64,000 nucleotides of DNA, taken from NCBI GenBank assembly GCA_902537945.1, contig CACBDG010000003.1, positions 53,625 through 117,624 of the forward strand, read 5' to 3'. Source of the stretch: an uncultured SAR116 cluster alpha proteobacterium (GTDB taxonomy: Bacteria > Pseudomonadota > Alphaproteobacteria > Puniceispirillales > Marisalimonadaceae). Below, piece by piece: positions 7,745 through 45,991 of the stretch. The notes beneath the pieces were generated by a model, which was given only the letters and a program-made list of their open reading frames with translations, was not told where the DNA came from and searched no databases. Both the position numbers and the translations under genes were made by a program. Position 1 is the stretch's first letter, and every line of letters starts with the position of its first letter.

Positions 7745-7816
7745 TTATGTATAAAAATATGTTAATTTGCAATTAACAATTGTAATAAATTTCAAAATTA
7801 AAAGAGGTTTTTTTAA

Positions 7817-8161
7817 ATGAATGAAAGTAAGGATTTCAATCAAGACTTTAGCCTATCAAAAGAAGCCTTAGAAAGAGTAAAAATTTTACTTAAAGACGAA
7901 GAAGGTTCATATTTTAGAATATCAGTTCTAGGAGGTGGATGTTCTGGTTTTCAGTATAATTTTTCATTTGAAAAAAAACCTAAAGACGATGATATGATTT
8001 TTAAAGAAGGTGAAATTGATTATTTAATAGATAAAGTGTCTATTGATTTTCTTCGTGGAAGCACTTTAGAATATGTTTCAGAACTAGCAGGATCATATTT
8101 TAAAATTGAAAATCCTAATGCTACAGCAAATTGTGGCTGTGGAACAAGTTTCTCTATCTAA
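7817..8161 (+). CDS. erpA: Iron-sulfur cluster carrier, A-type (ErpA/IscA family)
   Basis: Small A-type Fe-S carrier that delivers clusters to apoproteins. The 114-residue product has the three invariant cysteines: C42 in LGGGCSGF and C106/C108 in the C-terminal NCGCGTSF. A strong AGAGG ribosome site precedes the ATG at 7817. It diverges from dgt (72-base spacer) and is followed 15 bases later by xth, the conserved alphaproteobacterial pairing. ErpA, IscA and SufA cannot be separated firmly by motif; the location favours ErpA. Confidence 0.9.
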   Translation: MNESKDFNQDFSLSKEALERVKILLKDEEGSYFRISVLGGGCSGFQYNFSFEKKPKDDDMIFKEGEIDYLIDKVSIDFLRGSTLEYVSELAGSYFKIENPNATANCGCGTSFSI

Positions 8162-8176
8162 AATAAATATAATCAA

Positions 8177-8965
8177 ATGTCCTTTAAAATAGCTAGTTTT
8201 AATGTAAACTCTATAAAAATGAGACTACCAAATGTATTAAGTTGGCTAGATAAAAATAATATTGATGTCATTTTAATGCAGGAAACTAAGACAATTGACG
8301 ATAATTTTCCTTCATTAGATTTTAAACAAAAACGATATAATCTAATATTCAATGGACAAAAATCATATAACGGCGTTGCAATTGCATCTAAATTTGAAAT
8401 AAATGAAATTTCTAGATCATTACCTTTTTACAATGAGAGCATTGATGAAGATAATCAAGCAAGGTTCTTACACGTAAAAATTAATGATGTAAATATCATT
8501 TGCTTATATTTACCTAATGGTAATCCTGCTCCTGGTCCTAAATATGACTATAAAATTAGTTGGATGAAACGTCTAATAAAATATACTAAAGATATTTATG
8601 ACACAAATGAACCTCTGATTTTAGGAGGGGACTTTAATGTAATTCAGGAAAGTATTGATTGTTATGATATATCTAAATGGCAAAATGATGCATTATATCT
8701 GGAAACAACCAGAAGGCATTTGAGAGAGCTAATAAATATTGGTCTAGTTGATGCTTACCGCATAAAGTATCAAACATCTAAAGAGTATAGTTTTTGGGAC
8801 TATCAAGGTGGAGCTTGGCAAAAAGACAATGGAATAAGAATAGATCTTTTTTTAATCTCACCAGAGGTAGTTGATAGTCTAATTGATGTAGGTATAGACA
8901 AAACACCAAGAGGTGAAGAAAAACCCAGTGATCATACACCTATTTGGATTCATTTAGAAAAATAA
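8177..8965 (+). CDS. xthA: Exodeoxyribonuclease III
   Basis: AP endonuclease / 3'-5' exonuclease of base-excision repair (exonuclease-endonuclease-phosphatase fold). The 262-residue protein shows the N-terminal FNVNSIKMR motif, the metal-binding glutamate E36 in LMQETK, the GGDFNV motif in the middle, and the C-terminal catalytic D252-H253 in PSDHTPIW. It is downstream of erpA with a 15-base gap and meets the dehydratase gene tail to tail with only 3 bases between stops; no terminator hairpin is visible there. Confidence 0.96.
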   Translation: MSFKIASFNVNSIKMRLPNVLSWLDKNNIDVILMQETKTIDDNFPSLDFKQKRYNLIFNGQKSYNGVAIASKFEINEISRSLPFYNESIDEDNQARFLHVKINDVNIICLYLPNGNPAPGPKYDYKISWMKRLIKYTKDIYDTNEPLILGGDFNVIQESIDCYDISKWQNDALYLETTRRHLRELINIGLVDAYRIKYQTSKEYSFWDYQGGAWQKDNGIRIDLFLISPEVVDSLIDVGIDKTPRGEEKPSDHTPIWIHLEK

Positions 8966-8968
8966 ACT

Positions 8969-10819
8969 TTATGATTTATGTATATTTTTAGGTATAAACC
9001 CTGAATCTTCTACCCCTCTAGGATTAGGAACCCAGAGTTCTCGATTAGGATGCATTCCAGCTCCATGAGTTGCTGAAACAGCAGAGTTTCTCATTCTATT
9101 AAGCAATCTCGTATCTGCATCTCCAACTGCTGGATGTGTGCCACCATTCGTTTTGAAAATTTCTTCCCAATTGCTTTTTCTAAACTTGAAAGTATTAGTA
9201 TCATTCAATTCAGAACAATTAATCTCATTTTTATTTAAATCAACTATAATCTCATCTCCATCCTCTATTAGGGCAATAGGTCCACCTATAGCCGCCTCTG
9301 GACCAACATGACCAATGACAAGACCAACAGAGCCACCAGAGAAACGTCCATCAGTCATTAATCCTACAATAATATTTCTATCTCTGCACAAAGTGGTAAT
9401 TCTTGAGGTGGAATCTAGCATTTCTGGCATACCAGGTCCACCAACAGGTCCTTCGTACCTAACTACAACCATATCATTATTGTTAAAGCTGTCTGGTTTA
9501 TTTTCTAGGGTCCAAAGAAGTTTTTGTTCTCCATCAAATATTCTAGCTTTCCCAATAAAAACATTATTTTCTAAACCACCTTCAACACCAGCTAGTTTTA
9601 AGATAGAACTGAATTCAGGAGATAAATTTCCTCCTAAAAGTCTAAGTCCACCAGTTTCTTTATAAGGTTTTTTTACAGGATAAATTACTCTTCCGTCAGG
9701 TTCTTTGGGAGCTAATCTATCAACTTGTTCAGCTAAAGTTTCACCTGTACACGTTAAAGTATTGCCATTCAACAATCCTGAGTCTAATAAATCCTTTATA
9801 AAAACTTGAACACCACCTTGATTATCAATATCAACCATTGAGTATTTACCAAATGGTCTTGCGTCAACTAAAACAGGAACTACCTTTTCAGATAAATAGT
9901 TAAATTCATCTGGAGACATAATATCTTCACTAAAACTTTTATATCCTGCAGCTCTAGCTAACTCTGGTGCGTGAAGCATGACGTTAGTTGATCCTCCTAT
10001 AGACATTGCTACTATTAGAGCATTCCTTATAGAGTCTCTAGTAACAATATCCCTTGGCTTAATATCTTTTTTAACCATATTATCTAAATAAGTAATGAGT
10101 TGGTTAGGAAATACATCTAACCTTCTTTTATCGTCTGAAGGTGGTGAAACCATATGTAAAGGTTGCATGCCTACAACACCAATAAACGTCTGCATAGTAT
10201 TATAAGTAAACATCCCACCACAACTTCCATAACCAGGACAAGCTTCGCATGCAATTCTTCTTTTCAGTTCTTCATCTTCACTACCTGCAATTTGATAACT
10301 TGAAATAATGTCCAATGGTTCATTAGTAACTGAATCAATTCCAGGTCTTATTGGACCGTCAGACATTATTATAGCAGGTCTATTGTGCTCTAAAATTGCA
10401 GACAGTGTTCCAACAGGCGGTTTGTCACAGGCAACAACTGCAATTGTACCTTCTAAACCCGAAGCACTTAAATGTTCGCATAATGTATCATTAGTTACTT
10501 CTCTTCCAATCAAAGAATAACGCATCTCCTTAGTACCATTTCTTATACCATCAGATGTTGCGACGGTGTACTCAGGTTGTACTAATCTCATTCTAATATC
10601 ATTTGGGTTTTGGCCTATCCTTAGCCTTAAATTTTCATGTATTGTTTTAACTTTTTGTTCAACACCAAGATAACATTGTGAGTCCCCTTTATTACCAACC
10701 ACCCCAATTGAAGGTTCATGTATTAAATCAAGGTCAGTATTTAGGATTCTTGCAATTCCAAAAGTCTGCGAGTTTCTTCCAGGGTTTTTGTCAATTAAAA
10801 CTGTTTTTGAATTCTTCAT
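8969..10819 (-). CDS. IlvD/Edd family dehydratase, atypical subgroup
   Basis: Fe-S-dependent dehydratase of the family that includes dihydroxy-acid dehydratase (branched-chain amino acids), phosphogluconate dehydratase and sugar-acid dehydratases. The 616-residue protein keeps probable cluster ligands C131 (ACDKPPVG) and C200 (YGSCGGMF), and may use C49 as the third. The motifs differ from standard IlvD: CDKPPVG replaces the usual CDKITPG, and CPGYGSCGGM replaces CPTCGSCSGM. The substrate is therefore uncertain; sugar-acid or dihydroxy-acid dehydration is possible. A GGAG site precedes the ATG. It is 25 bases downstream of valS, the only hint of a branched-chain amino-acid link. Confidence 0.8.
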   Translation of the reverse strand: MKNSKTVLIDKNPGRNSQTFGIARILNTDLDLIHEPSIGVVGNKGDSQCYLGVEQKVKTIHENLRLRIGQNPNDIRMRLVQPEYTVATSDGIRNGTKEMRYSLIGREVTNDTLCEHLSASGLEGTIAVVACDKPPVGTLSAILEHNRPAIIMSDGPIRPGIDSVTNEPLDIISSYQIAGSEDEELKRRIACEACPGYGSCGGMFTYNTMQTFIGVVGMQPLHMVSPPSDDKRRLDVFPNQLITYLDNMVKKDIKPRDIVTRDSIRNALIVAMSIGGSTNVMLHAPELARAAGYKSFSEDIMSPDEFNYLSEKVVPVLVDARPFGKYSMVDIDNQGGVQVFIKDLLDSGLLNGNTLTCTGETLAEQVDRLAPKEPDGRVIYPVKKPYKETGGLRLLGGNLSPEFSSILKLAGVEGGLENNVFIGKARIFDGEQKLLWTLENKPDSFNNNDMVVVRYEGPVGGPGMPEMLDSTSRITTLCRDRNIIVGLMTDGRFSGGSVGLVIGHVGPEAAIGGPIALIEDGDEIIVDLNKNEINCSELNDTNTFKFRKSNWEEIFKTNGGTHPAVGDADTRLLNRMRNSAVSATHGAGMHPNRELWVPNPRGVEDSGFIPKNIHKS

Positions 10820-10844
10820 GTTTTTCTCCGATTTTCATTTAATA

Positions 10845-13487
10845 TTATAAATTTAATAAGGCCTTATTTATTTCTGATTTTCTTTGATCAAATACTGTTT
10901 TTTTAGTTTTTACATCCTCTATAACTTTTGACGGTGCTTTTTCTATAAATGAAGGGTTGTTTAGTCTTTTATCTATTATTTCAATTTCATTGGTTATATT
11001 TTCAAGCTCTTTACTCAATCTATTTTTTTCTGCTTCTATATCGATTAGTCCATCTGTTGGTATCATTAAAATTATCTCATCAACAGTTGTAACAATAGAT
11101 TTTTCATTTTCTTCATGTTGTACAGATAAAAATTTTATCTGATTTAATTTTGCTAAATTAAGGATTAAATCATTATTCTCTTCAATAATAATCTTTTTTT
11201 CTTGGTTTACATTTTTAAGTAAAATTGTAGGTCTAGATTTATTTGGAATATTTTTTTCAACTCTAATTGATCTTATCGCAGATACAATTGCAATTGTCAG
11301 ACCTATGCCATTTTTTAATGAAGTTTCAGTTTCAATTAAGCTCGGCCATGAAGATGATATTGCTAACTTATTAGATTTAAACAAGTTTTCAAAAATTTCT
11401 TCTGTAACATATGGCATTATTGGGTGTAACATTAATAAAACATTTTTCATTATTTTAATAGAAACACTTTTAGTCTCTTTTCGTGACTCAATATCTTTAG
11501 CATTATTCAAAATAGGCTTAATAAACTCTATATACCAATCACAATAATCTCTCCAAATAAATTGATACAAGGCATCTGCAGCATCATTAAATTTGTATTC
11601 AACTATAGATTTTTCAACTTTTGAATTAAGTTGATTATAATTTTCAATTATCCATTTATTGATTTGTAGATTTATAGAATTGAGATCAGTGTCTAGTTCT
11701 GAAACGCATTCATTAAATTCAAGAAATTTACATCCATTCCATATTTTTGTACTAAAATTTCTATATCCTGCAATTCTTTCTTCTGATAATTTTATATCCC
11801 TTCCTTGAGCGGCCATTGCTGTAAGAGTGAACCTTAATGAGTCAGCACCATATTTGATAGATAAATCAAGAGGATCTAGAACATTACCCTTTGACTTTGA
11901 CATTTTTTGACCCTTATCATCTCTTACTAGAGCGTGTATATAAACTTCTTTAAATGGGACCTCGTCATCCATAAAATGCATACCCATCATCATCATACGA
12001 GCCACCCAAAAGAATATTATGTCAAAGCCAGTTACTAAAACATTGGTTGGATAATATTTCTTTAGATCTTTTGTGTTATTAGGCCATCCTAAGGTTGAAA
12101 ATGGCCAAAGTGCAGATGAAAACCATGTGTCCAATACATCTTCATCTTGTATTAGTTTAACTTTTTTTCCATAATGCAACTCTGCTGCTTTCTCAGCATC
12201 TAACTGGTTATGTTCTACAAAAATCTTATCATCAGGCCCAAACCAAGCAGGTATTCTATGACCCCACCATAATTGTCTAGAAACACACCATGGTTGAATA
12301 TTGTTCATCCATTCAAAGTATGTTTTATCCCAATTCGCAGGAACAAACTTAGTTTTTTTATCTTTAACAGCTTTGATAGCTGGTTGAGCTAATTTATATG
12401 CATCAACATACCATTGGTCCATAAGCCATGGTTCCACAACTACGTTAGATCTATCTCCATGAGGAACCATATGTACAATTTTCTCTTCTTTAATATATAA
12501 ATTTTGAGCTTTTAAAATCTCTAAAACTTTTTTTCTAGCTTCTAATCTGTCTAACCCTTTGAAATCTTCTCCACCATTTTCATTTATCGAGGCATTAGCA
12601 TCAAAGATATTAATCATATCTAAGCCATGTCTTTTCCCAACTTCGAAGTCATTAAAATCATGAGCTGGAGTTATTTTAACAGCGCCAGAACCTTTTTCTG
12701 GATCTGAATAATTATCAAAAATAATAGGAATACGTCTATTTATAATTGGTAATATTACATATTTACCTTTTAGATGAATATATCTTTCATCATCGGGATT
12801 TACAGCTACAGCTGTGTCTCCTAACATAGTTTCTGGCCTAGTTGTAGCTATTGTTAAGAATTCGTCACTATTTTCAACTGGGTATTTAAAATACCAAAAT
12901 TTTCCTTCAACTTCTTTTTGTTCAACTTCTAAATCAGAAATAGCTGTTAATAGTTTTGGATCCCAATTAACTAATCGCTTGTCTCTATAAATCAATCCTT
13001 CTTTATATAATTTAACAAATACAGAAATTACGGCTTTTGATAAGCCATCATCCATTGTAAATCGTTCTTTTCTCCAATCCGGTGACGCTCCTAAAGCTCT
13101 TAATTGATTTGTAATTTCACCACCTGACTTTTCTTTCCACTCCCAAACTTTTTCAACAAACTTTTCTCTACCTAAGCCATGTCTTGTTAAATTAGATTTT
13201 GCTAATTCTCTTTCTACAACCATCTGAGTAGCTATTCCAGCGTGATCAGTCCCTGGTTGCCAGAGAACATCTAGTCCTTGCATTCTATGAAATCTTATTA
13301 AAATATCTTGAATAGTGAATGTTAAAGCATGACCAATATGTAACGAGCCAGTTACATTTGGAGGTGGCATCATGATAACATATGGTTCTTTTGGTGATTG
13401 ATTATTTGAAGCAAAAGCACCACTTTCCAACCATCTTTTATACCATTTTTTTTCTATGTAATTAGAATCAAACCTTTTGTCCATCAT
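10845..13487 (-). CDS. valS: Valyl-tRNA synthetase
   Basis: Class I valyl-tRNA synthetase, charging tRNA-Val and editing mischarged threonine. The 880-residue protein has HIGH at residues 50-53 (GSLHIGHALTF), the CP1 editing domain (with TTRPETMLGDTAVAV), the KMSKS motif near residue 525 (GQKMSKSKGN), the anticodon-binding domain and a C-terminal coiled coil that is typical of ValRS. It begins with two consecutive ATG codons at 13487. It lies between a TolC-like gene (23 bases) and the dehydratase gene (25 bases) on the minus strand. Confidence 0.98.
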   Translation of the reverse strand: MMDKRFDSNYIEKKWYKRWLESGAFASNNQSPKEPYVIMMPPPNVTGSLHIGHALTFTIQDILIRFHRMQGLDVLWQPGTDHAGIATQMVVERELAKSNLTRHGLGREKFVEKVWEWKEKSGGEITNQLRALGASPDWRKERFTMDDGLSKAVISVFVKLYKEGLIYRDKRLVNWDPKLLTAISDLEVEQKEVEGKFWYFKYPVENSDEFLTIATTRPETMLGDTAVAVNPDDERYIHLKGKYVILPIINRRIPIIFDNYSDPEKGSGAVKITPAHDFNDFEVGKRHGLDMINIFDANASINENGGEDFKGLDRLEARKKVLEILKAQNLYIKEEKIVHMVPHGDRSNVVVEPWLMDQWYVDAYKLAQPAIKAVKDKKTKFVPANWDKTYFEWMNNIQPWCVSRQLWWGHRIPAWFGPDDKIFVEHNQLDAEKAAELHYGKKVKLIQDEDVLDTWFSSALWPFSTLGWPNNTKDLKKYYPTNVLVTGFDIIFFWVARMMMMGMHFMDDEVPFKEVYIHALVRDDKGQKMSKSKGNVLDPLDLSIKYGADSLRFTLTAMAAQGRDIKLSEERIAGYRNFSTKIWNGCKFLEFNECVSELDTDLNSINLQINKWIIENYNQLNSKVEKSIVEYKFNDAADALYQFIWRDYCDWYIEFIKPILNNAKDIESRKETKSVSIKIMKNVLLMLHPIMPYVTEEIFENLFKSNKLAISSSWPSLIETETSLKNGIGLTIAIVSAIRSIRVEKNIPNKSRPTILLKNVNQEKKIIIEENNDLILNLAKLNQIKFLSVQHEENEKSIVTTVDEIILMIPTDGLIDIEAEKNRLSKELENITNEIEIIDKRLNNPSFIEKAPSKVIEDVKTKKTVFDQRKSEINKALLNL

Positions 13488-34288: not shown

Positions 34289-34365
34289 TGGTCGGGCCAG
34301 CGGGATTTGAACCCACGACCTCCCGCCCCCCAGACGGACGCGCTACCAGGCTGCGCTATGGCCCG
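34289..34365 (-). tRNA. tRNA-Pro (GGG)
   Basis: On the minus strand the acceptor CGGGCCA pairs with TGGCCCG. The anticodon stem TCCGT/GCGGG encloses loop CTGGGGG with anticodon GGG, the T loop is GGTTCAAATCC, and CCA is encoded. Length is 77 bases. Two G-T wobbles and one T-G closing pair occur in the anticodon stem, still a sound fold. Confidence 0.94.
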
Positions 34366-37750: not shown

Positions 37751-39001
37751 TTAGTTTAAAAATCGCATTATAGAAACTGAACTAGTGTCTTCATTTCCCA
37801 AGTTATGAGTTAAAATATTTGCTAATACTTCTCCAGACTTTGGAGCCATCATAAGACCATGATGAGAATGACCAAAATTAACGAACAAATTAGGTTGATT
37901 TGGCACACTACCAATTACCGGTATACTGTCAGGAAAGCTTGGTCGATGACCCATCCAAAACTTAGTTTTTCTCAAACTAATATCAGGAAACATTTCAATA
38001 GCAATTGCACTAAGTATTGATTTACGTTTTGGATCGAGCGGTGCCTCAATTGGTCCAAACTCAGCTTGCCCTGCTACTCTAACTCCTCCTTCCATTAAAC
38101 TCGCAATCACACCACCTTCTGGAAAAACTACAGAATTTTTTACTTCTATTTCTGGGTCAGAACAATGAATATGATATCCACGCTCAGTCATCAAAGGCAC
38201 AGTCACATCTAAATTAGAAAGTAAATCTCGACTCCATGCACCTGAAGATATTACAAGTGATTTTGTCTTATAGTTAGAAATTTGTCCTTTTAAGATCCAA
38301 GTTTCTACATCTCTATGTATTTCTAAAATTTGATCTTTAATTATCTCTGCTCCTTGTGCTTTTGCCTTCATTGCAAGAACAGCGCTTAACCTACCAGGAG
38401 AAAGTGATCTTGCAACATCGTAAGTGACTATTCCTGCCTCAAACTTAGATGAAAGAGCAGGTTCTAATGCACGTAATTCAGAACCTTTAATAATTTCTAT
38501 TTTAGCACCTTTTTGTAATCGAATTTGAAATTTCAAATCATCTAAAGTTGCATCTTTTGCATGTCTTACTAATTGTAAATATGCCGTATTTTTAACCAAA
38601 CCTTCATGTCCAGTCCCATTCAGATGTTTACTATAAAGTTCAATAGAGGGTGAGCATAACAATGACATTGCATTCGCAATATTTCGAGTATTCTCTTCAG
38701 TACCATTATATAAAAATTTTAGACCCCAAGGTATCATATTAGCTAAAGAGGTAAGGCGAACTGATAATGGACGCCAGCCAGTTAACATTAACTTTGGAAT
38801 AGTCTTCCAAAAACCAGGTGTGCTATGTGGAATAATTGACCAGGGTGATATAACTCCAGCATTACCATAGGATGTTGCCTGTCCAGGATCATCTTTATCT
38901 ATCAATCGAACGCTTATTCCACGATCTTGCAACGATAATGCTGAGCAAATTCCAACTATTCCTCCACCAATTATTGTAACATCATGTGTTTTCATAGGCA
39001 T
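37751..39001 (-). CDS. dadA: FAD-dependent D-amino acid dehydrogenase (DadA-like)
   Basis: A 416-residue flavoprotein of the DAO family. It has the FAD-binding GGGIVGICSAL near residues 12-22, an acidic strand end at LIDKDDPGQATSYGNAGVI, typical of DadA, and a C-terminal FAD motif NLFVNFGHSHHGLMMAPKSG. It would oxidise D-amino acids to keto acids, passing electrons to the respiratory chain. Related enzymes act on glycine, sarcosine or hydroxyproline, so substrate assignment is moderate. It lies just outside the proposed island boundary. Confidence 0.85.
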   Translation of the reverse strand: MPMKTHDVTIIGGGIVGICSALSLQDRGISVRLIDKDDPGQATSYGNAGVISPWSIIPHSTPGFWKTIPKLMLTGWRPLSVRLTSLANMIPWGLKFLYNGTEENTRNIANAMSLLCSPSIELYSKHLNGTGHEGLVKNTAYLQLVRHAKDATLDDLKFQIRLQKGAKIEIIKGSELRALEPALSSKFEAGIVTYDVARSLSPGRLSAVLAMKAKAQGAEIIKDQILEIHRDVETWILKGQISNYKTKSLVISSGAWSRDLLSNLDVTVPLMTERGYHIHCSDPEIEVKNSVVFPEGGVIASLMEGGVRVAGQAEFGPIEAPLDPKRKSILSAIAIEMFPDISLRKTKFWMGHRPSFPDSIPVIGSVPNQPNLFVNFGHSHHGLMMAPKSGEVLANILTHNLGNEDTSSVSIMRFLN

Positions 39002-39167: not shown

Positions 39168-39242
39168 TGGTAGAGCTAACAAGGATTGAACCAGTGATCC
39201 TTTCGATGTCAACGAAAAGCTCTCCTGCTGAGCTACCTCCAG
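39168..39242 (-). pseudogene. Degenerate tRNA-Val(GAC)-like copy, putative att site
   Basis: Exactly 75 bases long like the intact tRNA-Val at 45480-45554 and, counted by eye, 59 of 75 positions identical. The anticodon loop TTGACAT, the T loop, the D stem and the terminal CCA are intact. The acceptor stem no longer pairs (CTGGAGG against TAGCTCT) and the T stem has a mismatch, so it should not be a working tRNA. One anticodon-stem pair changed from C-G to T-A on both sides. It may be the distal attachment-site copy of the island or an element-borne tRNA that has decayed. Confidence 0.6.
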
Positions 39243-39548
39243 AGATTTTCAAAAAATCAAGTAAATCATACACTTAATATACAACCGCTTTTTAAATCTC
39301 ATAGCTCAATATAGCTAAATATCTAGCTTTTTTAAATGAGTGTGTGACAGGAATGTAACAGAAATTAAGAACTCACTTATACCCCTACCCTAAAATTTTG
39401 TAGGTTTTGTGTATAATAATTAGTCCTAATATTTAATTAGAAAATTTCATTAAATTAATGGTTTTTATACTTAGTTAAATATTTTTAAGAAATCTTTTGG
39501 CAATGGAAAAAGCCTATATATTTTCACCTTTACACTGTTAGTGGAACA
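39243..39548. other. Non-coding spacer inside the island's left end
   Basis: No gene is seen. A small plus-strand terminator-like hairpin (AGCTA, 6-base loop, TAGCT followed by a T run) lies at 39313-39333. A GTGTGTGACAGGAATG segment near 39341 resembles the GTGACAG half-site upstream of the integrase and might be an integrase arm site. The rest is AT-rich sequence without recognisable content. Confidence 0.3.
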
Positions 39549-39630
39549 TATGTGTATGGCTAGATGGATATAGACAGAATCTGCAGTAGATGGAGTGATT
39601 GTAAAAAGCTAAATTTTGTATAAAATAATC
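39549..39630 (+). repeat. Dispersed island repeat, copy R1
   Basis: It shares GTATGGCTAGAT (39554-39565), TGCAGTAGATGGAGT (39582-39596) and a distal TAAAATAATC with copy R2. It lies 25-105 bases upstream of the NTF2-like gene, so it may carry the promoter or leader of that gene. Confidence 0.55.
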
Positions 39631-39654
39631 ATTATAAAACAAAGGGGGAGGAAA

Positions 39655-40026
39655 ATGACAGCTGAAGAAATTGTTTTAGGTGGATACAAGAACTTTGCAG
39701 AAGGTGACATGGAAGCTCTTGCAAAAATATACCATCCTGAATGTAAAATTAATATTAATGGTAATCATTCTTTATCTGGAACATATATTGGCTTTCAATC
39801 ATTTTTAGAAAATGTTCTTGCTAAACTAGACAAGGTTTGGCCTGGATTCAATCTTGATATTGAAAAGGTAGTTTCGAATGAAACAGATGTTTGTGTTTTT
39901 GTTAGCATTAAAGCTGAAAATTTAAATTCAAAATCGATTCACCATTTTGTTGTTAAAGATGGTTTAGAAGTAGAGTTTAATTTTTATGATGATAGTCAAA
40001 AAATGTCAGAAGCTATGAAAATATAA
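39655..40026 (+). CDS. SnoaL/NTF2-like protein
   Basis: A 123-residue protein of the NTF2-like superfamily: MTAEEIVLGGYKNFAEGDMEAL at the start, a beta-rich middle containing LSGTYIGFQSFLENVL, and a C-terminal sheet (HHFVVKDGLEVEFNFYDD). Members are small enzymes (ketosteroid isomerase-like, polyketide cyclase-like) or ligand-binding proteins. The ATG at 39655 follows an exceptionally strong GGGGGAGG ribosome site and is preferred to an upstream in-frame ATG. It is the first cargo gene of the island and is preceded by repeat R1. Confidence 0.75.
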   Translation: MTAEEIVLGGYKNFAEGDMEALAKIYHPECKININGNHSLSGTYIGFQSFLENVLAKLDKVWPGFNLDIEKVVSNETDVCVFVSIKAENLNSKSIHHFVVKDGLEVEFNFYDDSQKMSEAMKI

Positions 40027-40353
40027 TGTAACTATTAATTATTTTTATAAATCATTTTTAATAATGATAAATAGTCCTCATAGAAAAGATAACTTTGATA
40101 TAAGAAAAGAGTTGATAAGTTATGCTGTAATACATAGATGTGATGGAAGAAACGTTCCTCAAATCAAGTAAACTTCCATAATGAAATTCTAACCATTATA
40201 ATAAGTCCTACAGAGTCATACATAGTCATTACTATTATCAGAGCCAAAATTATACATCCAATGTGCTTACAGTGGCTGTGTAAGGCTCTATGAGTCAGGG
40301 ATAGGAGTGGTAACAGTTATATCAAAATTCGTAGAAACCTATTGTATAATCAT
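40027..40353. other. Non-coding island spacer
   Basis: No convincing gene. A 35-codon open frame at 40064-40171 on the plus strand has no ribosome site and is probably chance or a gene remnant. The motif AGAGTCATACATAGTCA (from 40212) resembles AGAGTCACACAGAGTCA at 43752, another island spacer. A further GAGTCA lies at 40292. Confidence 0.3.
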
Positions 40354-40380
40354 CCACCCTATGAGTAATTTATAGGGTAG
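40354..40380 (-). terminator. Hairpin downstream of the cupin gene
   Basis: On the minus strand CTACCCTAT and ATAGGGTGG form a 9-bp stem (one G-U) with a 9-base loop, starting 20 bases after the cupin stop. It is the best terminator candidate for that gene, although only a weak T run follows. Confidence 0.5.
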
Positions 40381-40400
40381 ATAATTATTTCAATTTGCAA

Positions 40401-40826
40401 TTATTTGGCGAATACAGTAAGTGGTCCAAGACCTTCAGCTCCAGCAATTACAGCATACACTATTGAAGGAGTTTTAGCTGTATTTGTAACAGTGTGAGGT
40501 GAATTTGTTGCTTCAACAAACGTATCTCCAGCCTTATAGACTACCTTTTTTCCATTAGGACGTTCTGAGGTAACCTCCCCTGACATTACATGCACGATAA
40601 GGGGTGCAGGATGAGTATGTTTTGGTAATTTTCCACCTACTGGGAATATTACCTGAGCAATAGTCATTTTTGGAGTACCTTTAGGGTAAGAAATAACTTC
40701 ACCTGCACTAGATTTAGAACTTGAATGTAAAATTGTTACTTGTGGTTTTAATTGTTTTGAATTGGCTACATTTGCAAATACTGTTATAATTAATATGCTT
40801 ATCAAATTTGTAATTAATTTATTCAT
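40401..40826 (-). CDS. Secreted cupin-domain protein
   Basis: A 141-residue protein with a signal peptide (about 1-23, cleavage near ANS) and a single cupin fold. Metal-ligand positions are visible as the two histidines in LPKHTHPAPL, the downstream VMSGEV, and the later histidine in NSPHTVTN. Small periplasmic cupins of this type bind a metal and may act as isomerases, dioxygenases or sensors; none can be chosen here. An AAGGGA site precedes the ATG at 40826. Island cargo. Confidence 0.8.
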   Translation of the reverse strand: MNKLITNLISILIITVFANVANSKQLKPQVTILHSSSKSSAGEVISYPKGTPKMTIAQVIFPVGGKLPKHTHPAPLIVHVMSGEVTSERPNGKKVVYKAGDTFVEATNSPHTVTNTAKTPSIVYAVIAGAEGLGPLTVFAK

Positions 40827-40935
40827 TAGATTTCCCTTTTAATTTATTTCAACCCAAAATTTATACTCATTTATAATGATTTATCTGTAAAGCAATTACG
40901 TATTTAAAAATATAAGACTGTATAAGTAATAAGCA

Positions 40936-41016
40936 TATATGAGGGTATGGCTAGATATGTATAGTTAGGGTGTGCAGCAGATGGGGTATTTACAATAATT
41001 AGACTGTGAAATAATC
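40936..41016 (+). repeat. Dispersed island repeat, copy R2
   Basis: It contains GTATGGCTAGAT (40945-40956) and TGCAGCAGATGGGGT (from 40973), with a distal GAAATAATC. It is closest to R1 and lies 40-120 bases upstream of the gene at 41056, repeating the R1-gene arrangement. Confidence 0.55.
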
Positions 41017-41055
41017 TACGATTAATCACTTTAATTTTTTAAATAGGAAACTTTT

Positions 41056-41400
41056 ATGACTTCTTCAAAGCTAGTAAATTATACCACAAGAGAATTTATG
41101 TCAGACCATGAACTTGAACAATACATAGTTAAACAAAACGAAATTTTTACACCTAAAGTTATAGAAGAATTTACGAAAGCTGGAATGTTAAGAAGAGTTT
41201 TGACAAAACTTTGGAATAAGGAAGGTGTTCACAGAGTTGGTATATTATTTGAGTATAGAGATGAAAAAGCATATGTTGAATGCCAAGGTCTATTAGAAAA
41301 GCATTATATCCCAATGGTAAAAACATTTATTACTAAAGTAATAGGAAGCCGGGGTATAGTAGTCCATGAATTTAGTTCTGAAGAATTTACAAAAGGATAA
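41056..41400 (+). CDS. Hypothetical protein, possible dimeric alpha-beta barrel
   Basis: A 114-residue soluble protein that I do not recognise. The second half (RVGILFEYRDEKAYVECQGL followed by a VKTFITKVIGSRGIVVHEF strand) has the alternating strand-helix-strand pattern of small dimeric alpha-beta barrel proteins, but no family motif is evident. An AGGAAAC ribosome site is upstream. Repeat R2 precedes it and a nested hairpin follows its stop. Island cargo. Confidence 0.6.
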   Translation: MTSSKLVNYTTREFMSDHELEQYIVKQNEIFTPKVIEEFTKAGMLRRVLTKLWNKEGVHRVGILFEYRDEKAYVECQGLLEKHYIPMVKTFITKVIGSRGIVVHEFSSEEFTKG

Positions 41401-41413
41401 AATAACTAAAGTG

Positions 41414-41457
41414 TTAACCATTTTAATGACACATGTATGGTCATTCAGCAGGGTTAA
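41414..41457 (+). terminator. Nested hairpin after the gene at 41056-41400
   Basis: Two stacked stems are visible: an inner AATGAC/GTCATT (41425-41430 and 41440-41445) and an outer TTAACC/GGTTAA (41414-41419 and 41452-41457), followed by TTTATTTA. It starts 13 bases after the stop, consistent with a terminator. Confidence 0.5.
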
Positions 41458-41549
41458 TTTATTTAGAGTCAAAAGTAATGCATGAGATGTGGTTATATTG
41501 GCTGTGAGTGTCAGTATAAGTCTAGAATATAATATGCACTTCAATACTA

Positions 41550-42332
41550 TTATTTAAAAATAGCGGATACATTTCCAAATAACGATGAAGTTACCTCTAT
41601 TAATGTTTTATCATTTATAGGAATTGGAAGTCCATAGGCCCCAGTCAAAATTAAATTACCTTTTTTTAAAATGTTGCCTATTTTATCTTGTTCTTTAACT
41701 AACCACTCAACCTCTGACAGCATATCATGGGGCCACTCTTTATCTGACCATGTATCAATTATCTCTTTATCAAATATAAGTTTTAAATCTGTTATTTCAG
41801 AGTTGGTGTTTGCTTTTGTAGGTTTACCAATAACCACACCAGCATTAATAGCATTATTAGCAAGAAGTTCTGCACCAAAAGGTGGGTCACCATTAAAAAC
41901 TAGATTATGTATTTCTATAATAGGATGAATTGTTTCTATTGAGTCTAATATATAATCTAAATTTACCAACTCAGGTGTTAAATCACGATTTAATACAATT
42001 CCAAACTCGGCTTCCATTGCAGGATTTGTAAATTTACTTTTTTCTAAAGTAACACCATCTAAATATAATTCATCTTTCCAAAGCCTTCCCCATGCCGGTT
42101 TAGTAAAACCCATTTTAAGTTGTGTATCTTTAGAAACACATCCAATTTTATAGCCTATAACCTCTTCACCTCTTTGTTCTCTCAAATTAGTTACTGCAGA
42201 TTGAATGCGCCAAGCATCTTCAATGCTTATTCTATTCTTATCTTTAAAAATAGTTCCTGGTGTATTAGAATCATAATCGTGTAACATTTGAAAAGCATAT
42301 TTACTTAATTGTGTTGCAGTCAATTCTGTCAT
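41550..42332 (-). CDS. 2-keto-4-pentenoate hydratase/decarboxylase-like protein
   Basis: A 260-residue member of the fumarylacetoacetase C-terminal fold, hydratase (MhpD/HpcG) branch. The GYKIGCVS motif (60-67) and metal ligands in PAMEAEFGIVL (E107, E109) are visible, followed by TGAYGLPIPI near the end. Relatives hydrate or decarboxylate 2-oxo-pent-4-enoate type intermediates from catechol degradation, but no other meta-cleavage gene is nearby, so the natural substrate is open. An AGGAAG site precedes the ATG. Island cargo. Confidence 0.8.
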   Translation of the reverse strand: MTELTATQLSKYAFQMLHDYDSNTPGTIFKDKNRISIEDAWRIQSAVTNLREQRGEEVIGYKIGCVSKDTQLKMGFTKPAWGRLWKDELYLDGVTLEKSKFTNPAMEAEFGIVLNRDLTPELVNLDYILDSIETIHPIIEIHNLVFNGDPPFGAELLANNAINAGVVIGKPTKANTNSEITDLKLIFDKEIIDTWSDKEWPHDMLSEVEWLVKEQDKIGNILKKGNLILTGAYGLPIPINDKTLIEVTSSLFGNVSAIFK

Positions 42333-42413
42333 TATTTACTTCCTACTCATCCACTTAGTATAACTCATTGATTTTAAGTAATATTATTTTTACTTAGTAA
42401 GTATTTGTTAACT

Positions 42414-42749
42414 TTATTTAAATTTAACATCAGAAGATTTTATAAAGTTTGACAATTCAAGTTCACATTCGCCCTCTGAAAATGATACAATTCCACCCAT
42501 ATCTTTAATGTCTTTCCAAAATTGTGTGGAAAATGATTTTCTTGCTTTTTCTTGAAATGTTCTATCTTTCCAAACATGAAATAAGTCAACTTGAGTATCT
42601 GATATATGTGTAAAACTTCTTAACAACAATCCACCAGTTTCAGAAAACAAATGTTCAGAAATACTTTTTAAACTCATCATAATAGAGTTTTTCGCTAGTT
42701 TGTTTTGTAGTTTGACAGTTACAGTAATTCCAATCATTTTAATATCCAT
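42414..42749 (-). CDS. Hypothetical protein, antibiotic-monooxygenase-like fold
   Basis: A 111-residue product starting MDIKMIGITVTVKL. The pattern of a short strand, a helix with LKSISEHLFSETGG, a strand with LLLRSFTHI, then DLFHVWKDRTFQEKARKS and a terminal sheet resembles the ABM/dimeric alpha-beta barrel group (small quinol or haem monooxygenases). This is a fold impression, not a firm match. A longer reading from 42794 would run into repeat R4, so ATG 42749 (or 42737) is more likely. Island cargo. Confidence 0.55.
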   Translation of the reverse strand: MDIKMIGITVTVKLQNKLAKNSIMMSLKSISEHLFSETGGLLLRSFTHISDTQVDLFHVWKDRTFQEKARKSFSTQFWKDIKDMGGIVSFSEGECELELSNFIKSSDVKFK

Positions 42750-42784
42750 TTTAATATATAAGTTATGGTACGCTCTGAGTGAAG

Positions 42785-42835
42785 TTATGCTCATCTACAG
42801 TGCACCACTTGTAGTTGAATACAAGCTCTACCCTC
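42785..42835 (-). repeat. Dispersed island repeat, copy R4 (reverse orientation)
   Basis: Read on the minus strand it begins GAGGGTAGAGCTTGTAT and continues to GTGCACTGTAGATGAGCATA, paralleling R2 (GAGGGTATGGCTAGATAT to TGTGCAGCAGATGGGGTAT). It lies immediately upstream of the minus-strand gene at 42749, as R1 and R2 lie upstream of plus-strand genes. More diverged than R1/R2. Confidence 0.4.
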
Positions 42836-43010
42836 AGTTTATGTATTACTGAATCTGTGTCAACAGGCACTAAATGGTCTACCGTTTGGTCTACCCTAAA
42901 TGTTACATACTAAATTAGCGTTCTTAGTATAGAGAACGTGAACATGAATCTGTATCACTTAACTGTAACACTATAAGTGTAATCCTACCCCACACCTGTG
43001 CCACCCCGCC
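42836..43010. other. Non-coding, hairpin-rich island spacer
   Basis: No gene is seen in this part of the roughly 400-base gap. TGGTCTACC occurs twice, 12 bases apart (42875 and 42887). Hairpins CGTTCT/AGAACG (42919-42938) and CACTTA/TAAGTG (42956-42979) are followed by a C-rich stretch. That stretch is closed by CCTAC (42984) pairing with GTAGG (43014), which reaches into R3. It could be a structured RNA. Confidence 0.35.
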
Positions 43011-43088
43011 CTTGTAGGTATAGTATTCAAAAGCTCTGCAGCAAATGGGGGGTAAATATCAAAAATCATTTTCGTATAAAATTACCCC
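43011..43088 (+). repeat. Dispersed island repeat, copy R3
   Basis: It contains GTAGGTATAG, then CTGCAGCAAATGGGG (the R1/R2 box) and a distal CGTATAAAATTACC like that of R1. A GGGGTAA/TTACCCC stem (43049-43055 and 43082-43088) encloses the distal part. Unlike R1 and R2 no intact gene follows; a 17-codon open frame at 43141-43194 may be a remnant. Confidence 0.45.
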
Positions 43089-43204
43089 TTTAGTGGTTGT
43101 AGTCTCTATCTTCCATATAATAATTAAATCAAATATAATTATGAATAACAATTATATATTATTAACACTCTTTCCATTACCAGAAGATTTTTAGAAATAA
43201 TAAA

Positions 43205-43693
43205 TTATCTTAGATATGATGGGCATTGTTGGTATTGCCCAATTGTAAGTGTTGATAAGCTACCCCTACAATTATAACTACAAATTTTATTGTAACCTGA
43301 AACAAATTCAGAGTCATATGAACAGTTTGTAACACCTGTATTTTGAGGAGTGTTAACGTTCGTGTTACTATTACCACTATTTCCATAGAAGGTTGGCTTA
43401 CCAATATTCTTTAAATCGTTAATGCCTTTATCAAAATTTTTGCTAGCCCTATTTCTTGCTGACTTATCTAAATCTCTCATGCAATCAGCAAATTGTGATG
43501 TACCACGCGTATAACCATATCTACTACATTTTTGACTGAGATAATCATCAATCGTTTCTTGTGATGCACTCATAAACCACATAGGGCTTCCAGGGCGGCC
43601 AAGCACAGTTTCACCACTTGACCCAGTAGAGCAGTTTGATGTGGTCAAAATAATACCAAATAAGAATAATAATTTAATTAACTTATTAAACAT
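43205..43693 (-). CDS. Putative lipoprotein
   Basis: A 162-residue product with a lipoprotein signal: MFNKLIKLLFLFGIILTTSN followed by the lipidation cysteine. The mature part has SRYGYTRGTSQFADCMRDLD (a C-x-x-x-GY-x-x-GT-x-x-F-x-x-C pattern), an asparagine/threonine-rich low-complexity linker, and a C-terminal domain with five cysteines. I have no functional assignment. Earlier starts at 43708 (ATG) are possible, but the 43693 start gives the normal signal length with lysines near the N-terminus. Island cargo. Confidence 0.65.
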   Translation of the reverse strand: MFNKLIKLLFLFGIILTTSNCSTGSSGETVLGRPGSPMWFMSASQETIDDYLSQKCSRYGYTRGTSQFADCMRDLDKSARNRASKNFDKGINDLKNIGKPTFYGNSGNSNTNVNTPQNTGVTNCSYDSEFVSGYNKICSYNCRGSLSTLTIGQYQQCPSYLR

Positions 43694-43954
43694 ATTTAAA
43701 AAATACATCAAAATTTATTGTTAGTAAAATAAAATAACAAATCTTGATTTAAGAGTCACACAGAGTCAATTCATCTTTCTGGCTATGATTGTGTATAAAA
43801 TCAATTTACCTAGGTCCTATGACTCTAAAATCGCCATTAAACGCCGCTTTAAATACCTGGAAACCCCCAGCCACCAGGGATTACAGAAAATCAGAGATAA
43901 AATTAAAAATCAGGAATTTGCAACTTTATATAAATCTATATAGTTTTATTTGAT

Positions 43955-44365
43955 ATGAAAAAATTAGGTAAATATACAAAAGAAGAATTAGTTATACTTG
44001 AAAACATGTATCAAGATGGCTTTACAATTTACAAGATAGCCAGAGATTTAAGAAGAAGTCAGAAGTCAGTAAAGAATAATCTAATACGATTAGGATTAAT
44101 GAAGCCCCCTATTGAGACCTATATAGGTTCTAATGAGATAACTTTAAACAAAACTAATTATAATCTTTTAAACTTATTACCTATTACCTTCCTTCTTTTA
44201 TCTTTAATTCAGCTTAATACTAACTTCTTAAAGTTTAATACCTTAAGTCAACTACTAGTATTACTACTATCTACTTTTATAATTATATTGATGACTTATA
44301 AATTTATAAAAAGAACTTATAATTTAATATTCTTATCTTTGTATTTTTATATTTTAATGATGTAG
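43955..44365 (+). CDS. Helix-turn-helix protein with hydrophobic C-terminal half
   Basis: A 136-residue product. Residues 6-48 look like a short DNA-binding helix-turn-helix (KEELVILENMYQDGFTIYKIARDL then SQKSVKNNLIRLGL), of the kind found in GcrA-like or SANT-like domains. Residues 71-136 are three strongly hydrophobic segments (about 71-88, 96-114, 121-136). A membrane-tethered regulator is the simple reading. Alternatively the AT-rich 3' half may be a chance frame extension after a frameshift. It is the cargo gene closest to the integrase, and a TA-repeat tract (44366-44405) follows it. Confidence 0.55.
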   Translation: MKKLGKYTKEELVILENMYQDGFTIYKIARDLRRSQKSVKNNLIRLGLMKPPIETYIGSNEITLNKTNYNLLNLLPITFLLLSLIQLNTNFLKFNTLSQLLVLLLSTFIIILMTYKFIKRTYNLIFLSLYFYILMM

Positions 44366-44456
44366 TTATTATATATATATATTATATATTATTATATATA
44401 CTAATTATAACTAATATCTCTTCTTATTAATCTTAATTAAACTATATAGAGCGCCT

Positions 44457-45401
44457 TCAAGATTTTGGATGAGCATATCTAAACAACTGACTTATGGTTC
44501 TATGACCACTTACTGCTGCTATTTCAGGTATGGTATTTCCTTCCTCAAACAATCTACTAATAGATTCATGTCTTAAATCATGGAACCTTATTTTAAGAGA
44601 TAATTTTTTACATAATCTTTGATACATTAACCTCAAACTGTTTGTGGTAAGTGGAAAAACATATTCATTTATTACCTTAAGATTTTTTAAAATATTATAC
44701 GATTTATCTGTCATAGGTATTATACGTGGGTAACCATTCTTGGTATTTTCAACTGTTATTAATCCTCTTTTAAAATCAATATCATCCCATTTTAAAGATA
44801 ATATTTCACTTCGTCTCATAGCTGATTCCAAAGCAAGAACAATAATAGGATAAAGATAAATGTTATTATGGTCTTTAGTATATCGAAGAATTAATTCTAA
44901 ATCTTTGTCTTGTATTCTTCTTATAACCCGTTGATAAAGCTTAGGTATTTTAATGTGTCTAAATAGGTCTATTGGCACTTCCCAGCCCCATTCAACCTTA
45001 GCAATCTTTAAGGCATGTCTTAATATACCAAACTCTCTTGCAAAACTTGATGGCTTTATATTAGCCAATCTTTCATCTCTGTAGTTGGTAATATCAATGG
45101 GTTGTAATTTATCAAGTGGTATCTGCATCCATGGGTTACGTGCTAATGATTCAATAATGATATTCTCATTATGGGATGATTTTTTAAGAGGTGTAACCTT
45201 CTGTTTATACTCAAGAATTATCTCTTTAAAATTCTTAGGTCTATATAGTTCCCCAAGCTTTATTTTCTTTTCCAACTCTAGTTCTTTTTGTCTAGCCCAC
45301 CTCCTTGCATTATCTAAAGAGATAAGAGTTGCACTGGTGGATTGACCTTTGATACGTACCTGAACCTGGTATTTGTTATTACGTTTTCTTATGGTAGCCA
45401 T
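44457..45401 (-). CDS. int: Tyrosine-type site-specific integrase
   Basis: A 314-residue phage-type integrase. The N-terminal DNA-binding domain (MATIRKRNNKYQVQVRIKG) and the core-binding domain (about 55-150) precede the catalytic domain. The catalytic residues are all present: R196 in MRRSE, K221, H274 and R277 in FHDLRH, H300 in SGHRT, and the nucleophile Y309 in FRYAHP. The ATG at 45401 has a GAGG site and matches the normal family start, so an upstream ATG at 45413 is rejected. It sits 78 bases from the 3' end of tRNA-Val and is the likely agent that inserted the 39.2-45.5 kb segment. Confidence 0.93.
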   Translation of the reverse strand: MATIRKRNNKYQVQVRIKGQSTSATLISLDNARRWARQKELELEKKIKLGELYRPKNFKEIILEYKQKVTPLKKSSHNENIIIESLARNPWMQIPLDKLQPIDITNYRDERLANIKPSSFAREFGILRHALKIAKVEWGWEVPIDLFRHIKIPKLYQRVIRRIQDKDLELILRYTKDHNNIYLYPIIVLALESAMRRSEILSLKWDDIDFKRGLITVENTKNGYPRIIPMTDKSYNILKNLKVINEYVFPLTTNSLRLMYQRLCKKLSLKIRFHDLRHESISRLFEEGNTIPEIAAVSGHRTISQLFRYAHPKS

Positions 45402-45411
45402 ATATAACCTC

Positions 45412-45433
45412 ACTGTGACACATGAGTGACAGT
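45412..45433. promoter_or_regulatory. Imperfect palindrome upstream of the integrase
   Basis: A 22-base imperfect palindrome, ACTGTGACACATGAGTGACAGT with 18 of 22 symmetric positions, lies 11-32 bases upstream of the integrase ATG, between it and tRNA-Val. It could be an operator controlling the integrase or an accessory recombination site. A related GTGTGACAG segment is near 39341 at the other end. Confidence 0.4.
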
Positions 45434-45479
45434 CATTAAGTTTATATATGATGAATTACTGCTAAGTCATTGAAATTTA

Positions 45480-45554
45480 TGGTGGGACTAACTGGGATTG
45501 AACCAGTGACCCCTTCGATGTCAACGAAGTGCTCTCCCGCTGAGCTATAGTCCC
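45480..45554 (-). tRNA. tRNA-Val (GAC), integration site
   Basis: All stems pair perfectly: acceptor GGGACTA/TAGTCCC, anticodon stem CTTCG/CGAAG around TTGACAT with anticodon GAC, and T stem ACTGG/CCAGT. The CCA end is encoded. Its 3' end faces the integrase gene, as expected when an element has inserted at the 3' end of a tRNA and rebuilt it. Confidence 0.96.
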
Positions 45555-45619
45555 ATTTAATTATAATAAATATTGTGTTATAGTTGTATTATATTAGCAA
45601 TAAAAAAAGTAAATTATTT

Positions 45620-45991
45620 ATGAAAAAAATTGTTCTAAAATTTAAAGATAAAAATTTAATTTTAAACCTAAGAGATACACCAACAGCAGATTTAATTTAT
45701 AATAACTTACCTTTTACTTCCACTGTAAAAAAATGGGGAGAAGAGATTTATTTTGAAACACCAATTAATGTTGAACTAGAGGAAAATGCTAGAGAAGTTG
45801 TTGAATTCGGAGAAATAGCTTTCTGGAATGGAGGGTCAGCAATTGCTATTGGTTATGGTAAAACCCCAGCTTCGAAAGAAAATGAAATTAGATTAATTTC
45901 ACCTTGTAATATTTGGGCAGACAGTAATTTCGAAAAAAAATATATTGAAAAAATTAAAGAAAACGAGACTGTAAAAATAGAAAAACTTTAA
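45620..45991 (+). CDS. Cyclophilin-like fold protein
   Basis: A 123-residue protein resembling the small cyclophilin-like group (COG2164/DUF369 type). It has LRDTPTADLIYNNLPF near residue 14, a YFETPINVELEENAREVVEFGEIAFW middle, and GGSAIAIGYGKTPAS. No peptidyl-prolyl isomerase activity is established for this group. The ATG at 45620 is preferred to a TTG 36 bases upstream. It lies just outside the island on the far side of tRNA-Val and meets the thioesterase gene tail to tail with a 4-base overlap. Confidence 0.8.
   Translation: MKKIVLKFKDKNLILNLRDTPTADLIYNNLPFTSTVKKWGEEIYFETPINVELEENAREVVEFGEIAFWNGGSAIAIGYGKTPASKENEIRLISPCNIWADSNFEKKYIEKIKENETVKIEKL

Follow-up and report, generated by a model that had tools for sequence, protein, structure and literature searches.

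A probable tRNA-Val(GAC) integrative element of about 6.4 kb in a SAR116 bacterium, with cargo that suggests a pool common to islands at other tRNA genes

Introduction

What lies between an intact tRNA-Val gene and a tRNA-Val-like copy in the same orientation, about 6.4 kb away, in the genome of an uncultured SAR116 cluster alpha proteobacterium, and did it arrive there as a mobile element? The locus belongs to a stretch of 64,000 nt (GCA_902537945.1, contig CACBDG010000003.1, positions 53,625 to 117,624 of the forward strand), which we call the window and to which all coordinates refer. SAR116 is described as ranking with the most abundant heterotrophs of surface ocean waters (PMC8547437). 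A word search of two comparative papers on SAR116 returned no genomic island, integrase, integron, mobile or cassette.

From comparison of sequences, we consider it very likely that the segment 39168–45554 is an integrative element that inserted at tRNA-Val(GAC) by its own tyrosine integrase, with a near-complete tRNA copy as its attachment site and with cargo from a pool common to islands at other tRNA genes.

Results

The ends of the island and its integrase are the following.

39168..39243, minus strand: decayed tRNA-Val-like copy, putative far attachment site (attR); Rfam tRNA 35.3 bits, no ARAGORN call
39244..39543, minus strand: far end of the element, at 80–83% identity with those of four further SAR116 genomes
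39343..39360, minus strand: paired arm-like sites of the far end, TGTTACA (39354–39360) and TGTCACA (39343–39349)
44457..45413, minus strand: tyrosine recombinase (integrase), intact, start probably an inner ATG (MATIRKRNNKYQ); Pfam Phage_integrase, E 7.8e-28
45414..45431, minus strand: paired arm-like sites of the integrase end, TGTCACT (45425–45431) and TGTCACA (45414–45420)
45480..45554, minus strand: tRNA-Val(GAC), intact, putative integrase-side attachment site (attL); ARAGORN, Rfam 67.7 bits, cloverleaf fold

The integrase gene lies 66 bp from the 3' end of the intact tRNA-Val, a tRNA call on which ARAGORN and Rfam agree with the original prediction. Its product keeps R201, K225, H278, R281, H304 and Y313, invariant across an alignment of 11 sequences including its own, which we take to be the catalytic set of a tyrosine recombinase; the prediction that all catalytic residues are present thus holds. 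The closest integrases, in G014 (98%) and G036 (92%), each stand beside a tRNA-Val copy identical to the intact one of the window. At the opposite end, the expected same-orientation copy proved real, as it agrees with the intact one at 58 of 68 positions, against 33 for the best of 30 shuffles. The far copy has lost its acceptor stem and has a changed 5' end, and it gives no cloverleaf on folding (z −0.28, versus −2.21 for the intact copy). Short tRNA-Val 3' fragments were not found above shuffles within the window island. Of the 68 nt, 10 differ between the copies, and one arm-like site differs too, so that the present mobility of this element is doubtful.

The same anatomy recurs in other genomes. 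Far ends are 79.7–92.3% identical over 218–298 nt across the window, G036, G014, G028 and G031, and in the latter four the tRNA repeat is fresh (100% over 65–68 nt). A similar TGTCACA-like pair, with 11-nt spacing, stands at either end of related elements, among them those of types A, B and C, the tRNA-Arg elements and the one in G038. The G036 element has the same two ends and a length of 6.4 kb and shares the integrase, the HTH protein (93%) and the DUF6974 protein (97%), and its other genes differ. Conserved gene content and order in relatives had been named as a ground against mobility; this was not observed in the relatives compared. Elements at tRNA-Arg(TCG) are built alike (6.0–6.1 kb, repeat of 64–66 nt at 98–100%).

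Outside the element, the two flanks behave differently.

37751..39001, minus strand: DadA-like oxidoreductase, variable neighbour
45584..45991, plus strand: cyclophilin-like gene, conserved integrase-side flank, present in 24 of the 40 genomes of the genus

The cyclophilin-like gene has a tRNA-Val copy or remnant alongside in 23 of its 24 genomes, the contig of the remaining one ending there. DadA, by contrast, gave no match at E 1e-4 in the other tRNA-Val loci compared, and an orthologue (69–72%) occurs in 2 of the remaining 39 genomes of the genus, on other contigs, so that we reject it as a conserved flank. Because this neighbour is variable, the uninterrupted DadA–tRNA-Val–cyclophilin junction that the original prediction pointed to was not found, but integrase-free tRNA-Val/cyclophilin junctions do exist. 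For 8 of the 11 occupied loci, the far-side flank matches the downstream flank of an integrase-free tRNA-Val, starting no more than 10 nt from the tRNA end and at 70–98% identity. Occupied G014 and integrase-free G024, for example, agree at 95% over 600 nt, and an occupied and an empty site within the single assembly G028 agree at 97.3% over 411 nt. The window's own far flank, on the DadA side, has no match among the integrase-free junctions compared.

Two tRNA copies in integrase-free relatives had also been named as evidence against a mobile origin. This is seen in part: at G031:C98, G004 and G026, no related integrase lies between the two tRNA-Val copies, which counts against the reading. 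As G031:C98 has type A ends and the other two have type C ends, we interpret these loci as elements in which the integrase gene was lost or was always absent. The island is best understood as a very small tRNA-anchored passenger element, given that the same ends are found elsewhere, that the cargo is variable and that there are tRNA-Val/cyclophilin junctions free of an integrase; this supports the small mobile element first proposed.

Related integrases use the near-full-length tRNA copies in two opposite ways: either the copy on the integrase side is the intact one, or the far copy is, as in types B and C. In two genomes, it is the host-side copy that has decayed. For the window, a crossover would have fallen within the region common to both copies, probably the anticodon stem-loop, and would have joined the 5' end of the host tRNA to the 3' part brought by the element. 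This would leave a functional tRNA next to the integrase and a redundant hybrid at the far end; as the hybrid would have decayed since, the window copy may no longer excise well.

Between the ends lie seven small genes, as predicted, and copies of two repeats that we call T and P.

39554..39607, plus strand: P repeat, first copy
39616..40026, plus strand: SnoaL/NTF2-like protein; E 8.6e-6, slightly below the Pfam gathering score
40190..40303, plus strand: T repeat, first copy
40401..40826, minus strand: cupin; Pfam E 1.7e-13
40945..40998, plus strand: P repeat, second copy
41056..41400, plus strand: DUF6974 protein; Pfam E 5.9e-43
41413..41528, plus strand: T repeat, second copy
41550..42332, minus strand: 2-keto-4-pentenoate hydratase-like protein; HpaH E 1e-25, under the equivalog cut-off
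42414..42794, minus strand: small protein, no Pfam family over cut-off; relatives at 62–64% in three other arrays
43205..43711, minus strand: predicted lipoprotein, no family; called a lipoprotein in the original prediction from its N terminus
43955..44365, plus strand: HTH and membrane protein; weak phage-regulator match, E 4.7e-7; neighbours the integrase in G036 too

Family matches were found for the predicted cupin, for the NTF2-like and hydratase-like proteins (both below cut-off) and, as DUF6974, for a fourth; the HTH protein has its weak match. Several of these genes belong to a pool whose members lie in islands beside the genes for tRNA-Val, -Leu, -Arg and -Gly. DUF6974 copies 93–97% identical adjoin T copies in islands at all four tRNA genes of other genomes, cupin copies (89–96%) occur in five further arrays, of which two lie at tRNA-Leu and one lies at tRNA-Arg, and the hydratase-like protein has relatives in G033 (89%) and G030 (84%). 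Against the tRNA-Leu island of G022, DUF6974 is 96.5% and the cupin 93.6% identical, versus 67% and 76% for two core proteins that these genomes encode in the flanks. Such little-changed copies near other tRNA genes suggest a cargo pool traded between islands. Defense families gave only two weak matches, PD_DExK (0.005) and CARF (0.002).

T, an imperfect palindrome of about 115 nt, stands at many cargo junctions and has copies in 33 of the 40 genus genomes, including the four that supplied the T model. The 20 array stretches were hand-picked from T clusters, and multi-copy arrays are therefore favored. Polarity and stop codons were mapped on 63 of 72 copies, those below 40 bits being left out. 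At the 10 mapped loci that hold the anchoring tRNA, all 27 copies of at least 40 bits are antisense to it and lie beyond its 3' end; strand is mixed in 4 of 23 mapped stretches, all four without a tRNA in view. In the G036 stretch, T also stands opposite a tRNA-Pro, on its other side; this tRNA is not counted as an anchor. The stop codon of the right neighbor faces T in 43 of 62 cases (24 of these within 28 nt), and that of the left neighbor in 29 of 59 (12 within 28 nt).

Flank linkage and break points were examined on 61 of 71 copies, those of 45 bits or less being left out. Among pairs of T copies, 76 share the left flank only and 46 the right only, and each part of T, left or right, follows the flank on its own side; the pairs are not independent, and some left flanks are another repeat rather than a gene. 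The estimated break points spread over all of T, with no single crossover point. Gene neighbors are kept across 17 of 46 testable T gaps versus 49 of 107 T-less gaps (Fisher p 0.37), and, when both genes co-occur in another locus, across 17 of 31 versus 49 of 90 (p 1.0). In a post hoc split by gap type, order is kept at 17 of 46 gaps with T and 2 of 16 of P type; among plain gaps, it is kept at 44 of 66 below 150 nt and at 3 of 25 longer ones. Module borders are therefore not marked by T alone.

The arms of T pair slightly better with their own partners than when swapped (0.682 versus 0.665; 39 of 2000 swaps as high), and a later covariation test on 46 of the 63 mapped copies gave no excess (77.7% paired versus 77.8% shuffled). 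A role of T as a structured strand is thus not supported, nor is one as an intrinsic terminator in the window copies.

Discussion

How might the cargo of these elements have come to differ so much? Modules would swap from one island to another, probably through homologous recombination at intergenic repeats that the islands share, for instance T. At T itself, exchange is not proven, as gene order overall is broken no more there than at other gaps.

Three rival readings have to be weighed. First, T could be a site-specific recombination site, and the islands gene-cassette arrays moved by some recombinase as in integrons. The genus-wide occurrence of T, its one polarity toward the tRNA, its abutment on stop codons and the linkage of its halves to their flanks all fit this explanation, yet mixed strands where no tRNA is in view, unfocused break points, arms without covariation and the unexceptional breakage of T gaps speak against it. 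Moreover, no integron integrase passes the TIGR02249 cut-off in the 40 genus genomes, many of them incomplete (52–100% complete), although none does in 14 control genomes either, so that this search had no positive control. The pair RYYYAAC/GTTRRRY, the attC box motif, occurs in 0 of 60 T copies, so that T is not attC-like by this test. On balance, a site-specific, integron-like origin seems unlikely.

Second, the element could be a phage satellite, or an element of tycheposon or VEIME type packaged by a helper phage. Its tRNA, tyrosine recombinase and size fit descriptions of tycheposons (PMC10872708 and PMC10803314), and larger relatives with related integrases encode a protein of phrog_4756, a phage family without assigned function (E 1.6e-52 in G016, the genome tested). 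However, the claimed lack of phage genes stands for six of the seven window cargo proteins, which match no phage family, and is qualified by the HTH protein alone, with its weak regulator match; and exact-word searches of viral contigs found no close integrase, T or end sequence. Packaging by a helper phage is thus improbable. A prophage is not supported, as no phage structural or replication genes were found in the element. Plasmid matches comprise 37 records, and all of the 20 matches listed lie at tRNA ends only. In a wide integrase search, full-length matches reach at most 39% among the best 80 of at least 578 found, and T is absent from the loci of those 80.

Finally, an old tandem duplication of tRNA-Val that gathered genes and never moved, although it would account for a nearly full-length, diverged far copy and for the three integrase-free loci with two copies, is highly improbable, given that four other genomes combine this far end with a fresh tRNA repeat, that integrase-free junctions exist and that arm-like sites stand at both ends.

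If the integrative-element reading is true, it names vehicles and attachment sites by which SAR116 cells trade small genes, it offers a testable case of a working tRNA copy handed from host to element, and it makes the role of T open to direct testing. What goes beyond an ordinary island is the opposite use of tRNA copies by related integrases and a cargo pool common to several tRNA islands with T at many junctions. A bolder formulation, which we hold only tentatively and think unlikely, is an integron-like trading system of SAR116 without an integron integrase, in which palindromic T bounds cassettes with one polarity toward the anchoring tRNA, the same cassettes circulate genus-wide between islands at four tRNA genes, and tRNA-borne integrase elements are vehicles able to take over the tRNA they enter.

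Several known systems invite comparison. Integrons and orphan attC clusters likewise hold many small unrelated genes, with an imperfect palindrome, here of about 115 nt, at gene 3' ends and a constant polarity wherever an anchor can be seen; the SAR116 arrays differ in lacking IntI over the cut-off and attC boxes, in carrying genes in both orientations and in break points that do not point to a focused crossover. The Xer dif (pdif) modules of Acinetobacter plasmids are likewise described as genes that move as modules between short repeats, but T resembles the dif-like site of the genus no better than shuffled T does (best match 11.75 versus 11.97 of 21 on average, 60 copies), and a role as dif is not supported.

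Tycheposons, known from Prochlorococcus and further marine bacteria, are described in PMC10872708 as cargo elements of ocean plankton that lie next to tRNA genes and have a tyrosine recombinase, traits that the SAR116 elements share. The opposite use of the tRNA ends and the shared T-repeat pool were not found in the portions of the tycheposon accounts searched.

With the classical tRNA-targeting integrative elements and genomic islands, the SAR116 elements have in common an integrase beside the tRNA 3' end, a direct tRNA repeat, an intact tRNA kept and integrase-free sites in relatives. In classical islands, the repeat usually covers mainly the tRNA 3' end. The SAR116 repeat, unlike theirs, spans 64–68 nt, nearly the whole tRNA, and types B and C keep the far copy intact.

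Results

The integrase, the cargo and the two tRNA-Val copies of the window are all at the positions given in the original prediction of a small tRNA-Val island:

39168-39243 (-), far tRNA-Val copy, decayed
44457-45413 (-), integrase
45480-45554 (-), intact tRNA-Val(GAC)

The window (G000:C3:53625-117624) comes from an assembly that is 75% complete. Its tRNA-Val copies are identical at 58 of 68 positions (best of 30 shuffles, 33), and the far copy, which folds without an acceptor stem, is altered, as is one of the arm-like sites of the window's element; these changes make its present mobility doubtful. A tRNA-Pro(GGG) lies close to the left flank (34289-34365); in another genome, G048, a 39% relative of the integrase adjoins tRNA-Pro(GGG).

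Counting the window's own genome, 39 of the 61 genomes searched have integrase relatives. Among 20 integrase loci fetched, tRNA-Val(GAC) lies beside the integrase at 11 and another tRNA at 4; ARAGORN called none at 5, at two of which (G031 and G020) altered tRNA-Val copies adjoin the integrase. The cyclophilin-like flank on the integrase side is present in 24/40 genus genomes, with a tRNA-Val copy or remnant beside it in 23; the remaining contig (G005) stops there. The far-side flanks of 8 of 11 occupied loci recur at integrase-free tRNA-Val junctions (no related integrase within the fetched stretch, some such contigs stopping soon past the tRNA), with the match beginning at most 10 nt from the tRNA end at 70-98% identity; two further flanks match such junctions only from about 250 nt inward, and the window's far-side flank matched none. 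G028 holds occupied and empty forms of one flank within a single assembly (97.3% over 411 nt), which points to a site that is probably polymorphic within the population or bin.

The elements use the tRNA in two ways. Type A comprises the window, G036 and G014, plus far ends in G028 and G031. Its far copy starts with 7-10 bases of its own, and the integrase-side tRNA is complete wherever seen. The copy beside the integrase is intact no further than position 64 or 53 in types B and C (G016, G013, G009, G031:C86 and G020); their far copy, where on the same contig, is complete, and the sequence before it is common to those elements. Folding bears this out: the intact tRNAs of the window and G016 form an acceptor stem, and neither the far copy of type A (window, G036) nor the type B copy beside the integrase (G016) has one. 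The window's far end is 80-83% identical to those of G036, G014, G028 and G031, four genomes whose tRNA repeat is 100% identical across 65-68 nt. The G036 element (6.4 kb, window-like in size) keeps the integrase (92%), the HTH protein (93%) and the DUF6974 gene (97%), and its remaining genes differ. A near-full-length tRNA repeat also occurs at tRNA-Arg(TCG), in elements of 6.0-6.1 kb in G001 and G004. Larger type B/C elements (L025 6162-7574; relatives in G013, G009 and G020) have a common module that includes a protein of phrog_4756, a phage family without assigned function.

TGTCACA-like heptamers occur as direct pairs, 11 nt apart, at a distance from the tRNA of about 50 nt at the integrase end and about 100 nt at the far end. 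Types A, B and C all have these or similar pairs. Both ends of tRNA-Arg elements carry TTGACACAG pairs, and both ends in G038 carry AGTCACA pairs. All are putative integrase-binding sites.

Paired tRNA-Val copies lacking a related integrase in between, which the original prediction had named as evidence against mobility, do occur, in G031:C98, G004 and G026, and count somewhat against a mobile origin. Since the ends in G031 are type A and those in G004 and G026 type C, we read these loci as elements from which the integrase gene was lost or was always absent. In G004 and G026 the cyclophilin-side tRNA-Val is a remnant, and a type C end precedes the sole full copy seen, which looks like a takeover of the host's tRNA gene by the copy from the element. 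Further units at tRNA-Val or its fragments, in which no related integrase is in view, end in copies of the last 23-28 nt of the tRNA, lying behind end sequences that resemble one another (type D; 11 copies were compared side by side).

Coordinates of these and other loci
L061 (G004) 1207-1281 and 7289-7324, tRNA-Val copies, one full and one a remnant
L067 (G026) 2296-2370 and 949-996, tRNA-Val copies, one full and one a remnant
L146 (G031:C98) 7126-9574, 2.4-kb stretch flanked by type A-like ends and without an integrase gene; it may have been mobilised in trans
L063 1333-2485; L068 1052-2201; L071 1018-6178; L147 3711-3738 and 10025-10052, type D units at tRNA-Val or fragments of it
L195 12854-12870; L201 5128-5143; L204 11695-11708; L205 4295-4308, short copies (14-17 nt) of the 3' end of tRNA-Leu or tRNA-Arg, behind an end that looks similar

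Discussion

The window's spacers have two repeats, T (about 115 nt) and P (about 50 nt), in common with G036 and G014. A first T model, built from eight copies out of four genomes, found T in 33/40 genus genomes, those four included; a refined model detected T in 50 of the 136 genomes searched across the order (32 in this genus, 11 in two other genera of the family and 7 weak elsewhere). An anchoring tRNA, namely tRNA-Leu(GAG), tRNA-Arg(TCG), tRNA-Gly(TCC) or tRNA-Val(GAC), is visible in 10 of 23 mapped stretches, and each of the 27 T copies scoring 40 bits or more in these 10 loci is antisense to it. In each of four other mapped stretches, where no tRNA is visible, T occurs in both orientations. 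In L197, a T site lies 7 nt from the end of a gene (7959-11000) whose 1013-aa product has MORN repeats and a caspase-like domain.

The cargo is likewise found at several tRNAs. Copies of the window's DUF6974 gene at 93-97% lie on islands at all four, and the cupin recurs at 89-96% in five arrays, of which two lie at tRNA-Leu and one at tRNA-Arg. Since the window and G022 show only 67% and 76% identity in two core proteins that adjoin tRNA-Val, horizontal exchange of both cargo genes is well supported by these comparisons.

Where two T copies have one flank in common, they also have in common the part of T next to it (76 and 46 pairs, which are non-independent), a pattern suggesting that exchanges probably took place within T. 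A dedicated recombinase is a possible but less likely agent; attC and dif features were looked for in T and are absent, and no covariation was found between its arms. Estimated break points are scattered, and gene order is kept at 17/46 T gaps versus 49/107 elsewhere, which is no excess breakage at T. Homologous recombination at common repeats would explain these observations most simply. A dif-like site, CGCATAATATATATTATGTAA, occurs once each in 25/40 genus genomes.

Our literature searches, Rfam on the window and word searches in the accessible text of PMC8547437 and PMC12262181 gave no description of T or the cargo pool. The window element belongs with the tRNA-targeting integrative elements. 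Tycheposons, which are defined by a recombinase clade and by hallmark genes, are the nearest named marine kind, a comparison that covers the tRNA site, the cargo and the presence of a tyrosine recombinase.
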